Assembly (NCBI GenBank): GCA_018241725.1
Contig: JAFEDI010000141.1
Coordinates: 1-37,861 of the forward strand
Length of the DNA: 37,861 bases
Source of the DNA: Pseudomonadota bacterium
GTDB lineage: Bacteria > Pseudomonadota > Gammaproteobacteria > Burkholderiales > Rhodocyclaceae
Direction: 5' to 3'
Shown here: positions 11,924 to 37,861 of the stretch, piece after piece
Numbering within the stretch: position 1 is the stretch's first letter
Layout of the letters: every line of letters begins with the position of its first letter
Notes under the pieces: model-generated
What the model was told of the DNA's origin: nothing
Databases searched by the model: none
The model's input: only the letters and a program-made list of their open reading frames with translations
Position numbers and translations under genes: made by a program

Positions 11924-12076
11924 CTGGCCGCCCTCTCGTGGTTTGGATGGGGGCACTGTGCGCACGCAGGATGACAGTACGGTAACGGGATGGTGTCGGA
12001 ACGATGGCAATCCGGCTTTGTTTGCGCCAGGTCAACCGCTTGGCCGTTCCGGCATCGGGATGAGCGGCAGCGCAGC

Positions 12077-12715
12077 TCAATACACGCCGTAATTGAAGGC
12101 CAGTTCGATGCGCTGGCTGCGGTTCAGCCCTTCCAGCCCGACGAGGCGCTTGCCGTCGCTGCGCAGGCCGTAGCGCTGCTCGATCTCGGACAGGTAGCGC
12201 GAAGCGCGGCGGAAGCGGCCTTCATAGGTGGCGACCGGCAACAGGTAGAGGTGGGACGTCCAGTACAGCTCGCCGGGCGTCACCGGCAGGCCGCTGAGCT
12301 TGCGTGCGTAGTCGCTGACGCGAGTGTCCGTGTAAATGACCAGCGCGTTGTAGCCCATGTCCTGGGCGAAGTCGTAACGCCGCCGGCGGTCCGGGACGAA
12401 GACGCTCCAGCCGTCCCGCGAGAAGGCGTGGGGCGCCACGTCCACCAGCTGCCCGTCCGGCGCCAGCCACACGGAATGGAAGGTGAAGCCGTGGGCGCCC
12501 TGCTGCGGCCCGGCGTGTTTCGGCAGGCTGTGCAGCCAGCCGAAACACTGGCGTCCGCCCTCCGCCGCCACCGTGTCGCGCACCACCGCGTGGCAATACA
12601 CGTCGCTGCCGGCTTCGCCGGCGCCCCGGTGGCGGATGCGCAAGGGCGCGCCGCCGGCGAAGTCGCGCAGGCGCTGGGCGACGACGGGCGGTAGCAGGGC
12701 GGCGGACGGGGCCAT
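12077..12715 (-). CDS. Hypothetical protein with a GW...HSVW...PDG.LVDV.P core
   Basis: This unrecognised protein has 212 residues from the ATG at 12713-12715. It contains a block FGWLHSLPKHAG, then TFHSVWLAPDGQLVDVAPH, of the style seen in widespread uncharacterised soluble proteins with conserved Trp, His and Pro-Asp-Gly positions. A later segment is helical and basic (GRFRRASRYLSEIEQRYGL). The start lacks a clear ribosome site. The same frame stays open upstream through the 21-bp repeat array to an ATG at 13027, so the protein could carry a ~100-residue heptad-repeat N-terminus. I favour the short form. It lies 153 bp upstream of the Mpo1-like gene. Confidence 0.65.
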   Translation of the reverse strand: MAPSAALLPPVVAQRLRDFAGGAPLRIRHRGAGEAGSDVYCHAVVRDTVAAEGGRQCFGWLHSLPKHAGPQQGAHGFTFHSVWLAPDGQLVDVAPHAFSRDGWSVFVPDRRRRYDFAQDMGYNALVIYTDTRVSDYARKLSGLPVTPGELYWTSHLYLLPVATYEGRFRRASRYLSEIEQRYGLRSDGKRLVGLEGLNRSQRIELAFNYGVY

Positions 12716-12788
12716 GGTGGTGGAGCGATTGAACGGGGGGCGGAAGTTAGCATGCACTATCGCCCAGCTTCCACTGCGCCGGCCAGAT

Positions 12789-13082
12789 ATCTTCGTGCAC
12801 GCGTGCACGGTCTTCTCGCACCGGTGCACGATCAACTTTGCCGCCGTGAACAAGACCGTGCACGGGTGAAAGGTCTTCGTGCACGGCGCGTAGTTCATCT
12901 TTCGTGCGGCAATGTTCATCGTGCACCGGGTGAAGTTCATCTTGCACGCGTGCACGAAGAACTTCGGGTCGGCTGAGTTGATCGTGCACGCGCCAATGTT
13001 GAACGTGCACGGCTGCGAGATGGACATTGCCGGTCAAATGTTCGATATCGGCGGGTTAACAATGGATACGCGCGGTGCGGTG
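12789..13082. repeat. Degenerate 21-bp tandem repeat array centred on GTGCAC
   Basis: Fourteen contiguous 21-bp units fit without any insertion or deletion. The clearest is TTCATCGTGCACCGGGTGAA plus G at 12915-12935. GTGCAC starts at 12795, 12858, 12879, 12921, 12984 and 13005 (TTGCAC at 12942), all in one 21-bp phase. A second phase, offset by 8, has GTGCAC at 12803, 12824 and 12950. On the minus strand the array reads as heptapeptides of the form K/T-x-N-x-x-x-C (for example KFFVHAC, KMNFTRC, KLIVHRC) without a stop from 13027 into the next gene. On the plus strand the phase reads as x-x-V-H-x-C-T but is broken by two stops. It fills most of the 443-bp gap between the hypothetical gene and the kinase. 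Whether it is coding or a regulatory array is open. Confidence 0.8.
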
Positions 13083-13158: not shown

Positions 13159-15408
13159 ATGCGGACTTTCCAGTCGTTGTCCAAGCAGCCGAAGCATGAA
13201 AGTCCAAGAGCCGCATCCAGGCTGTCCAGCTGCAAGTCCCTTGGCGGCTTCCTGTTGTTCGCTGTCGCGGTGCTGGTGTTGCTCGGTTTCTTTCTGGCGG
13301 AGGGCTACCAGGGCCAGATCCGGCTGGCGACTGCCAATGCGCGCAATCTCGTCGAGATACTTGAGGCGCGGCTGGATGTGTCCCTGCGGCGTACCGAGAC
13401 GACCCTCGCGGCGCTGGCGGAGGAAGTCCCCGTCGAGGCCCTCGATCTGGCTGCCCGGGAGCGCCATGCGCCGGACCTGCACCGCAAGCTCGTCGCGTGG
13501 GCCCAGCGCTTTCCGGAGATCAGCGGGCTGCGCCTGATCGACCGGGACGGCAACGTGCTGTACCTCTCTGAGGGTATTGCTACGGGTACGCCACCCAGTG
13601 CGCGGGGACGCAGCTATTTCGAGATCCTCAAGCAGCAGCCGGATCATCCACTGTTTTTTTCCGAGGTCAGCGTCGGACGCATCAGCCATCGGCCGCAGCT
13701 CTTCGCCGCGCTGCCGATCCGCGATGCCCAGGGGCGCTTCGTCGGGGCGGCAATGGCGCCGCTCGAACTGGATTACCTGTCCACGCTGGTGAACGCCATC
13801 GACCTCGGCGAGCACGGCGCCGTCACCTGGCGGCGCAGCGACGATGCGCGGCTGGTGATGCGCATCCCGCCGCGCCCGGAAGCGGTCAATCAGGCGATCA
13901 TCAACAACCCGATGCACATGCGCATCGAGCAGGGCGACCGGGAGGGGATCATCCGTTTCCAGGCGGCGCTCGACGGGCAGGAGCGCATCTACGCGTACAA
14001 GCGCGTTGGTGTCTATCCTTTCTATGTGGCGGTGGGGCTGGCGACGAGCGACTTCCTCGCCGAGTGGCGGCGCACGGCATTGATTTCGACAGTGTCCACG
14101 CTGGCCTGTCTGGCCCTGCTTGGGATGCTCTTGTGGCGGCAGATCCGCTATCGGCAGGACCTGGAGTACACGGTGGCCCGGCGCACCGGTGAACTGCTGC
14201 AGGCCACGCGGGCGGCGGAGGGGGCCAACCTGGCCAAGAGCGCCTTCCTGGCCAATATGTCCCACGAGATCCGCACGCCGCTCAATGCCATCATCGGCAT
14301 GGCCCACCTGCTGCGGCGCGGCGGCCTGAACGTGCGCCAGACCCAGCAGCTCGGCAAGCTGGAGGCGGCGGGCGTGCACCTGCTGCACATCATCAATGCG
14401 GTGCTGGAGCTGACTAAGATCGAGGCCGGCAAACTCAGCATGGACGAGGTGCCATTGCAGGTGGAGCGCATCGTCGCCGCGGTGGTGGACATGATTCGAG
14501 GGCAGGCAGAGGAGCGCCAGCTGCGGCTCGATGTGCAGCTCCAGTTGCCGGCCTGTGTATTGCTCGGCGACGCGACCCGCCTGCAGCAGGCCCTGCTCAA
14601 CTACGCCAACAATGCGGTGAAGTTCACCGAAGCCGGCGGCATCGCGCTGCGCGTCGATACGCTGGAGGAGGGGGCGGACAGCGTCGTGCTGCGCTTCGTC
14701 GTCGAGGACAGCGGTATCGGTATTGCTGCGGAGGCCATGCCGCGCCTGTTCAACGTCTTCGAACAGGCCGACAACAGCATGACGCGCAAGTACGGAGGAA
14801 CCGGCCTCGGGCTGGCCATCACGAAGAAGATCGCCCAGCTGATGGGTGGCGATGCAGGTGCCACCAGCGTGCCTGGGCAGGGCAGCACCTTCTGGTTCAC
14901 CGCCCGCCTGCGCAAGGGTGCGCAGGACCTGTCGGCAGGGTTGGCCGGTGCGCCCGAGGCGGCGGAGCAGAGCCTGGTGCGCCGCCACGCGGGTTGCCGG
15001 GTACTGCTGGTGGAGGACGAGCCGGTCAACCGGGAGATCGTGCTGAGCCTGCTCGGTGATGTGGGGCTGCTGGTGGATGCCGCCGAGGACGGCGTGCAGG
15101 GCCTGAACATGGCGACCACCAACGATTACGCGCTGATCTTGATGGACATGCAGATGCCCGGCATGGACGGCCTCGAAGCCACGCGCCGCATCCGCGCGCT
15201 GCCCGGCCGGCAGGCCGTGCCGATCCTGGCCCTCACCGCCAACGCCTTCGCCGAGGACAAGGCGCGCTGCCTCGAAGCCGGCATGAACGACTTCATCGCC
15301 AAGCCGGTGGCGCCGGACGTGCTGTTCGCGCTGCTGGACCGCTGGCTGGAGCAGGCCGCCGGGGATGCCGGGGGCCGCTCTGGGGCCCCTCACGAAACTA
15401 TGCCGTGA
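13159..15408 (+). CDS. Hybrid sensor histidine kinase with extracytoplasmic sensor and receiver
   Basis: This is a 749-residue membrane kinase. TM1 (about 28-48) and TM2 (about 305-326) flank a periplasmic double-Cache-like sensor ([19 protein letters not shown], then [20 protein letters not shown]). HisKA follows with the phosphoacceptor H369 ([11 protein letters not shown]), then HATPase_c with its N, G1 and G2 boxes ([24 protein letters not shown]), and a receiver with phospho-Asp D663 ([11 protein letters not shown]). There is no HPt domain, so an outside phosphotransfer protein is expected. The neighbouring hybrid kinase carries one, and exchange between them is possible. The Shine-Dalgarno is weak. 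The coding end overlaps the converging kinase by 11 bp. Confidence 0.93.
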
Positions 15409-36964: not shown

Positions 36965-37861
36965 TCAGGCTCGGATGTCTTCAAAGAGTTTCGGGAACAT
37001 TACCCGATGGGCTTCTATTGACTCTACCACCACTCCTCTAATCGAATTGGCCTTCTTCGCCAATAGTCGCTCTGAGTACCTCATCATCTTGTCAAAGAAG
37101 AACTCTGGCTTGGAAGCCGAAACAGGTACCAGCAAGCATGTCGCGAGCCCGATTTTACTGTATAGCTCAGAGTCGTCGTCTGATTCCATGTTGATGCTGC
37201 TAATAACTTCCACAACTTTTTCGGAATACTCCTTGATAGGCGATAAAACAATTTCATTCATTAGGCTTCGATAAGGCTTTAGAATTCTGTCGATTGACTC
37301 GCGACTCTTTCTGTACGTAAATAGCGCTTGTCGGACTCCGTTCGGTCGCCGTGCTGCGTATGGAAGAACTCCATCCTTGTTTATCTGCTGAATCATATTT
37401 ATTTGGCTTCGAACCAAATGAGAGCACATGTTCTCTCTTAGTTCTGGAGAGAGGTTGACGCCCATGGCCATACACCGATAGAGCAATAGCAAATGTGCAA
37501 GGCGTCGTCCGAATGCAGGATAATTCTGGAATTTTTCCGTGGACGATCGTTCTGAAAGAAAATTCAGAATACTTGAAGAGTCGTCCATCATCGATACCAT
37601 GAATAAGATTACATTGTGCCAGCCTTCGTTTTCATAGTGTTTCTTGAGGATCTCTAATTCCTTTCTTTTTGCGACGAAGTACTTTGCAACGAAATACTCT
37701 TGCATCGTTGCATGGCTGAATTCGTATGTTTCTGCCGAGCATTTCTCTACGATGCCATGATGACTCTCGATCTCCATTAAAATGCCTTTGGCGTCGTTTG
37801 GGTCCATGGAAAATCGAGCTATTTCACTTGAGATGGCGCTTAAGATAAAGAACTCGTGGAA
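36965..37861 (-). CDS. STAND/NACHT-type NTPase, C-terminal part only (5' end beyond window)
   Basis: The frame is open to the right edge, giving 298 visible residues with the start outside. The visible N-terminal part shows the end-of-NACHT pattern: a helical stretch, M-E-I-E-S-H-H-G-I-V-E-K, then E-F-S-H-A-T-M-Q-E-Y-F-V-A, the F-x-H-x-T-x-Q-E-Y-x-x-A signature that closes the winged-helix region of bacterial STAND NTPases. About 235 helical residues follow with no obvious TPR, LRR or WD repeat. Base composition is markedly AT-richer than in all its neighbours. Many such proteins are anti-phage defence sensors; that role is inferred. The nucleotide-binding P-loop and any N-terminal effector lie outside the window, so neither is seen. 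Confidence 0.65.
   Translation of the reverse strand, partial: FHEFFILSAISSEIARFSMDPNDAKGILMEIESHHGIVEKCSAETYEFSHATMQEYFVAKYFVAKRKELEILKKHYENEGWHNVILFMVSMMDDSSSILNFLSERSSTEKFQNYPAFGRRLAHLLLLYRCMAMGVNLSPELRENMCSHLVRSQINMIQQINKDGVLPYAARRPNGVRQALFTYRKSRESIDRILKPYRSLMNEIVLSPIKEYSEKVVEVISSINMESDDDSELYSKIGLATCLLVPVSASKPEFFFDKMMRYSERLLAKKANSIRGVVVESIEAHRVMFPKLFEDIRA

Follow-up and report, generated by a model that had tools for sequence, protein, structure and literature searches.

The phased array in the window

The window, i.e., the whole stretch of 37,861 nucleotides on contig C46 of the Zoogloea genome G000, contains an array of 21-bp units between two divergent genes. In 7 other Zoogloea genomes one of these genes has relatives (E <= 0.001); the other encodes a hybrid kinase. 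The features of the locus are:

12077-12715, minus strand: flanking gene, 212 aa, without Pfam or NCBIfam match
12716-13027, minus strand: in-frame open extension 5' of the 212-aa gene, judged not coding
12774-13067, unstranded: 21-bp-phased array of 14 units with the layout L6-NN-R6-7-mer, whose L and R sets are mutual reverse complements
12779-12788, unstranded: left edge of the array, CCGGCCAGAT, which resembles the right-edge CCGGTCAAAT; a single copy is left in the array-less locus of genome G020
12795-12808, unstranded: as cut in register, the only window unit with both half-sites intact, GTGCAC NN GTGCAC
12984-13010, unstranded: successive first-phase GTGCAC cores at 12984 and 13005, 21 bp apart
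13030-13049, unstranded: right edge of the array, CCGGTCAAAT GTTCGATATC; G020 runs from the left edge straight into GTTCGATATC, with 251 bp absent
13159-15408, plus strand: flanking gene, hybrid histidine kinase (dCache, HisKA, HATPase_c, receiver)

The array holds nine GTGCAC hexamers (12795, 12803, 12824, 12858, 12879, 12921, 12950, 12984 and 13005), which fall into two 21-bp phases offset by 8 bp, six in the first and three in the second. With a TTGCAC at 12942 as its seventh member, the first phase spans 12795-13005, i.e., 210 bp. Mean identity at lags of 21, 42, 63 and 84 bp was 0.502, compared with 0.255 +/- 0.014 in 2000 dinucleotide shuffles (shuffle maximum 0.304; z 17.4), and the same shuffles contained at most 3 GTGCAC. 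The register is unbroken by indels across about 14 units. The first-pass annotation, which had described seven cores in one phase over 210 bp, a second phase at 8 bp and about 14 units free of indels, was thus right about the array, its seven cores being the six GTGCAC and the TTGCAC; the left end lies slightly beyond the 12789 that it gave. The position upstream of a hybrid kinase, which it had also pointed out, holds for the window array and is not a general trait: other arrays come after a TorF gene, are placed in a PedF/SugE region or precede an SDR-like gene. Far from the array, at 37668-37704, the window also carries an AT-rich short tandem repeat, TTTGCAACGAAATAC, with a 15-bp unit in 2.4 copies.

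Cut in register, each unit consists of a left hexamer (L), two nucleotides (NN), a right hexamer (R) and a 7-mer, i.e., 6-2-6-7 bp. In 120 units from 13 pieces of array GTGCAC was the L hexamer in 52 and the R hexamer in 50, and the 7-mers fell largely into reverse-complement pairs (GTTGATC 12 and GATCAAC 11; GGTCTTC 8 and GAAGACC 6; GCTCAAC 8 and GTTGAGC 7). Half-sites found in place of GTGCAC include TCACAC, TTTGGC, ATTGGC and TAACAG. Statistically, the right half-sites read in reverse complement are indistinguishable from the left ones: in 180 units from 15 pieces, the Jensen-Shannon value between the non-GTGCAC L hexamers (123) and the reverse-complemented R hexamers (124) was 0.049, compared with a median of 0.046 and a 95% value of 0.085 for random splits of one set, and it was 1.53 when R was left unreversed. 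This complementarity, together with the paired 7-mers, places two dyads 10.5 bp apart in each unit, one in the middle of NN and the other in the middle of the 7-mer. Around the 7-mers, GTGCAC was present on one side in 74 of 107 cases, on neither in 23 and on both in 10; the last value is lower than the ~21 expected under independence, and therefore the simplest picture of a dimer on each site does not fit.

Arrays of the GTGCAC type have ~6-16 contiguous units. The longest direct repeat within any of them was 18 bp and the longest string common to different loci 26 bp, so that the grammar is unlikely to stem from recent duplication. Pairs of loci in the same genome shared strings barely longer than the other pairs (mean 18.1 in 21 pairs versus 17.2 in 63), and we rejected recent copying between loci. 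Avoidance of GTGCAC as a restriction site (that of ApaLI) was likewise rejected: in 400 kb of G000 it occurred 82 times against 104.7 expected and ranked 27th of the 64 palindromic hexamers, i.e., without genome-wide avoidance.

Distribution and conservation of the arrays

The same grammar was present at four loci of G000: the window, C9 (L011), C32 (L013) and a locus apparently spread over two contigs (L014 at the end of C110, L012 at the start of C30). Orthologous places in three other Zoogloea genomes, Zoogloea sp. LCSB751 (G016) and the MAGs SZAS-77 (G020) and SZAS-78 (G021), bear arrays of equal grammar, giving 14 GTGCAC arrays in the four genomes. The window type occurs in G000, G016 and G021, the TorF and PedF/SugE types in all four, and the type beside a gene that we presumptively label SDR-like (L014/L012) in G000, G020 and G021. 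L014 and L012 seem to be a single array that an insertion sequence has divided, since matching inverted sequence is present at their ends and the copy in G020 and G021 is uninterrupted; a 25-aa fragment resembled a transposase HTH weakly (E 0.096, short of the cut-off). The same start recurs in an ORF that ends contig C32 past the TorF array (L013).

Of 23 Zoogloea genomes, 9 were matched by a sequence-only model of 35 rows at E <= 0.01, with 32 matches in G000, 27 in G021, 23 in G020, 17 in G016 and one or two in each of five further genomes; absences carry little weight, because several of the genomes are incomplete drafts. A pattern scan of a collection of genome contigs returned at least 115 stretches; among the matches listed, 7 were judged arrays of this kind, all from Zoogloea sp. 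LCSB751, SZAS-77 and SZAS-78. The units thus recur at further loci of G000 and in three relatives, which answers the first-pass concern that a unit found nowhere else would speak for chance slippage. Six other stretches and one viral match were inspected: L103 and L135 are direct 21-bp tandem repeats and the rest lack an array. The former lie in a Thermoanaerobaculia MAG (L103:4093-4444) and in Gordonia soli (L135:2347-2538) and contain GTGCAC or GTGCGC strings; no reverse-complement mosaic was seen in either. Lag 21 was not prominent in 109 loci from elsewhere, 831 kb in all (108 picked by the genome pattern and one viral), with a count of 6 against 10 at lag 12, 7 at lag 15 and 6 at lag 18. 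The passages of the literature found among the matches listed contained no description of such 21-bp mosaic arrays.

Arrays of other sequence were also found. The weak model matches, at six places in five genomes, included 21-bp arrays of other sequence in G008, G012 and G003 (C96), while the places in G007, G015 and G003 (C86) proved on inspection not to be arrays. An 800-kb sample, formed by C4 and C42 of G000 (400 kb, chosen as long) and C86 and C96 of G003 (400 kb, known from the weak matches), gave 6 signals above 0.55 at lag 21, one of them the known C96 array, compared with 4 at lag 42, 3 at 24, 2 each at 27 and 48, 1 at 15 and none at the remaining lags from 10 to 60. The palindromic 6-2-6-7 layout was seen in L210, L215 and L226 and less clearly in L192 (4971-5180) and L194; further arrays are in G020 (L182) and in G012 and G010 (L237, L238). 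The half-site sets of the families are GTGCAC, TTGAAC/GTTCAA, TCGCAG/CTGCGA, CCGAA/TTCGG, AGGCGA/ACCCTC and GTAGAC/GTCTAC, and their common layout suggests that they form one class. A divergent 21-bp array with GTGCAC and ATTCGATGTTG on C128 of G000 (L015:2076-2180) is perhaps kin of those in G012 and G010. On C4 of G000 there is also a near-identical 21-bp tandem repeat unlike the mosaic arrays (L192:11888-12122, with TCACCTGTATTTGGTGGAAGG at 11960-12064).

Between array-bearing relatives, the arrays differ in length by whole units. The window locus measures 349 bp between fixed anchors in G000, 370 bp in G016 and 391 bp in G021, i.e., steps of 21 and 42 bp, and the aligned TorF arrays have just two internal gaps, each of 21 bp and both in L148. 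Free pairwise alignments split or cancel gaps (9+12, 14+7, 3 and 3, 1 and 1), and such gaps may be alignment artefacts. In 13 ortholog pairs, mismatches affected 66 of 1212 GTGCAC positions (5.4%), compared with 576 of 2820 (20.4%) in the other half-sites, 112 of 672 (16.7%) in NN and 240 of 2352 (10.2%) in the 7-mers; 170 of 202 GTGCAC hexamers were intact against 186 of 470 others. These counts score each pair both ways, after aligned units that matched at fewer than 11 of their 21 positions had been dropped, and we claim no significance for them because pairs within a locus share history. Core retention, the conservation of palindromes that the first-pass annotation had proposed as a sign of binding, could also come from conversion towards GTGCAC. 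The order of the alternative half-sites is largely conserved between species. An apparent module inversion between L011 and L031 disappeared once a 21-bp unit gap was allowed, and among 15 strongly changed 7-mers three came close to the inverted form of the one they replaced, each in a pair whose unit numbers differ and where misalignment is likely.

At the window locus G020 keeps the 212-aa gene (94% identity) and the kinase-side flank without the array; the locus is 98 bp long against 349 in G000, and the missing 251 bp equal twelve units minus one bp. The join falls in CCGGCCAGAT, and the array bears a similar copy at each edge. Loss of the array is the simpler reading, because G016 and G021 bear it, and gain is also possible. 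With both flanks recognisable in G020, the array is dispensable at that locus. G010, G012, G018 and G019 have the 212-aa gene at 64-68% identity with different upstream DNA, and lag-21 identity did not exceed 0.48 in the 3.6-kb loci around it.

Coding potential, RNA folding and flanking genes

The first-pass annotation had offered, beside a multi-site operator or nucleoprotein array, a Cys-rich heptad-repeat protein domain read from the minus strand in frame with the next gene. The 21-bp unit does equal seven codons, G or C predominates at every third position, and in G000 a minus-strand ORF (12077-13027, about 316-318 aa) is open through the array into the 212-aa gene, but the orthologous frame is closed in G016 and G021 (246 aa). 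The substitutions in five ortholog pairs (67 unit pairs, among them L011/L031, which is off by one unit at its end) were spread over codon positions as 64/68/67 at 469 sites each, so that the differences between orthologous units show no third-position bias; since 21 is divisible by three, this result bears on every frame. Summed over 13 arrays, the six frames contained 32, 56, 27, 18, 54 and 19 stops in ~1160 codons each, and in the wobble frame 15 of 48 stretches of 105 bp (35 codons) were stop-free. In favour of coding, two minus frames were poor in stops (0.0154 and 0.0164 compared with 0.0356 predicted from composition) and one of these was stop-free in 4 of 13 arrays, namely the window type of G016 and G021 and the TorF type of G000 and G021. 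The heptad product gave no tblastn match in plasmid and phage collections at E 0.01, and the heptad, for which the first-pass annotation had proposed a search of protein databases, matched as a profile in 1 of 300 genomes of the order, G000 itself. We rejected the heptapeptide-repeat domain as extremely improbable, since its frame is not kept between species and the substitutions lack third-position bias.

A second alternative is that the array is transcribed into long imperfect hairpins acting as a 3'-end structure, a bidirectional terminator or a decoy RNA. The minus strand of the window array has a predicted folding energy of -138.5 kcal/mol (z -8.4 relative to dinucleotide shuffles), and the TorF arrays start at the TorF stop codon, contain a conserved 18-bp stem and fold better on the minus strand than 30 shuffles each of their module order (z -3.3 in L013, -3.5 in L027, -2.7 in L030 and -1.7 in L148). 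The other 9 of 13 arrays, however, folded on both strands within 1.5 sd of their own modules randomly ordered, and we discarded organised long-range RNA pairing as a general trait, since mainly the TorF arrays stand out. In the four TorF sequences the covariation term was unfavourable (+4.25), with double changes in 6 of 106 pairs, and the window gave no Rfam match at the gathering threshold; neither result supports a structured RNA family. The position of the window array between divergent genes and the rarity of GTGCAC on both sides of a 7-mer also stand against an RNA element, which we regard as unlikely. The best hint of hairpins in this array class comes from L210:17501-17716 (G003 C86), where the half-site pairs AGGCGA/TCGCCT and ACCCTC/GAGGGT swap jointly across the 7-mer.

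The genes on either side of an array may be divergent, tandem or convergent, and this variety speaks against a single simple regulatory role. TorF-type arrays start at the stop codon of the TorF gene (TIGR02001). This gene is present at 74-77% identity in six array-less genomes (G004, G006, G010, G011, G012 and G022), none of which has a 21-bp array directly after it; it is followed 3' by a convergent oxidoreductase-like gene in G004, G010, G011 and G012 (family taken from G011) and by another ORF in G006 and G022. G010 and G012 have an array of other sequence beyond the gene next to TorF. The far side of the TorF array shows three arrangements in the four array genomes, G000 and G021 being alike, and the flanks in G020 and G016 open with LysR and AsnC-type regulators. 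Gene order at the PedF/SugE locus (L024, L025, L011, L031) varies between species: in G000 and G020 PedF separates SugE from the array, SugE is on the far side in G021, and G016 is without PedF.

At the TorF, SDR-like and PedF/SugE arrays one flank is common to the species and the far flank differs in several comparisons, the difference beginning near the array edge. Next to the array of the SDR-like locus, G000 has a gene for an uncharacterised 342-aa protein, and G020 one for an OLD/GajA-like ATPase. In a chosen set of ten flank proteins, taken without control loci, seven had PADLOC matches: LmuA (1.3e-48), LmuB (3e-109), PDC-S02 three times (over the C-terminal part), OLD/GajA-like and SduA (4.7e-162); the 342-aa protein, a DUF4365 protein and a 130-aa ORF had none. 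The Lamassu pair LmuA and LmuB adjoins the PedF array on C9 of G000 (L179:537-4311; GC ~0.5). Beside the SDR-like array on C32 of G020 (L183:764-4857), an OLD/GajA-like ATPase, a PDC-S02 nuclease and the Shedu protein SduA stand in a row; the matching spot of G000 keeps PDC-S02 with a different array-proximal gene. PDC-S02 relatives were found in 3 of 23 Zoogloea genomes, each within ~2.5 kb of a 21-bp array, the three cases involving two array sequence families and two of them being one orthologous locus. The third is on C63 of G012 (L150, 3058 bp), where a 21-bp array of other sequence lies ~0.9 kb from the PDC-S02 relative and the contig also has an HTH_38 ORF. This nuclease, the one array neighbour whose co-occurrence was assessed, is missing from G016 and G021 and is therefore not the common factor of the arrays.

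These flanks are suggestive of arrays that border variable regions with Lamassu, Shedu, OLD-like and PDC-S02 genes, and the array might then be a recombination or integration border for accessory, often anti-phage, genes. The variable far flanks, the seven PADLOC matches and the nearness of every PDC-S02 relative to an array favour such a landing site, but the window array is without cargo and has both flanks shared, the TorF far flank is common to G000 and G021, and at L210 and L215 the neighbouring genes are predicted to converge on the array, with no sign of cargo. Since in addition only some flanks were scanned, without control loci, and the three PDC-S02 cases amount to two loci, we consider a border function very improbable as the general explanation.

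A putative docking array

The observed phase, dyads, strand symmetry, core retention, 21-bp steps and recurrence at several loci, together with the lack of a coding signal, fit best with the other reading of the first-pass annotation, a multi-site operator or nucleoprotein array. With moderate confidence we interpret the array as non-coding duplex DNA that serves as a docking array for a putative dimeric, oligomerising DNA-binding protein; selection, protein binding, oligomerisation and an effect on the flanking genes are what we infer from the above. Selection would act on the register and not on a peptide. The putative protein would bind as symmetric dimers and oligomerise along one face of the helix, each 21 bp (two turns) offering it two dyads 10.5 bp apart, one central to the L-NN-R palindrome and one to the 7-mer. 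Among the half-sites GTGCAC would have the high affinity, whereas the alternatives and the constrained 7-mers would tune occupancy, either as weaker sites or as spacers. A lone GTGCAC is common in the genome and we therefore propose that specificity comes from avidity over many phased sites. The flanking genes might be affected by local silencing, insulation or bridging.

A functionless mutational repeat would account for part of the same observations: slippage would add or remove 21-bp units while hairpin-guided template switching keeps the half-sites complementary. The copy-number steps of 21 bp, the G020 join within a short sequence present at both array edges, the strand symmetry, the hairpin potential (z -8.4) and the intergenic position all agree with it. 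The units are, however, far from identical, as the limits on shared strings within and between loci indicate; GTGCAC is far better kept than its neighbours, the order of the alternative half-sites is largely kept, and near-inverse 7-mers are confined to pairs where misalignment is likely. On balance we find a purely mutational origin rather unlikely.

Helically phased operator arrays are known from multi-site binding of the Lrp or ParB type. The Zoogloea arrays resemble them in having symmetric sites at whole-turn spacing, with the spacing conserved and the core positions changing less than their neighbours, and cooperative binding on one face would be expected; they differ in their ~6-16 contiguous units, degenerate half-sites, unrelated intergenic loci and a cognate protein that is still putative. 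Minisatellites or VNTRs share the shifts in copy number by whole units, yet G020 departs from this by one bp; the Zoogloea units are ~50% identical at lag 21 and strand-symmetric, whereas L103 is an ordinary homogeneous array, and the GTGCAC arrays contained no recently duplicated near-identical units. A CRISPR array was rejected, as the half-sites vary and face both ways and the 7-mers are largely reverse-complement pairs. REP/BIME elements, as portrayed in two papers (PMC2817692, PMC3733652), are mosaic and species-specific; their palindromic modules are extragenic, face either way, often come after genes and are described as protein-binding sites; the CGTC REPs are said there to be without dedicated transposase (PMC3733652). 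The Zoogloea arrays are also extragenic, palindromic, mosaic, in both orientations, species-specific and often placed after genes, but have a continuous 21-bp register and two dyads per unit. REP/BIME copies exceed 100 per genome; G000 has at least four GTGCAC array loci, and arrays of other sequence besides. We do not file the arrays under REP/BIME because the unit consensus (position table, 120 units) lacks a GTAG or CGTC tag and the Y1 (RAYT) transposase PF01797 had no match in G000, with positive controls in 5 of 14 genomes.

A wider proposal, which we put forward as quite improbable in its entirety, is that the arrays form a genus-wide class whose half-site code differs by lineage or family and is read by co-evolving filament-forming proteins, some arrays being borders or landing pads for the exchange of anti-phage genes beside core genes. 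If arrays do mark the borders of variable defence-gene regions, they would help to recognise such sites. A non-coding register kept over a dozen non-identical units would call for an explanation even if it were a product of mutation. If the docking array is real, Zoogloea possesses a sequence-specific nucleoprotein lattice that is undescribed and has a grammar legible in the DNA, and its half-site code, differing by family, would be a handle on the evolution of phased multi-site binding.
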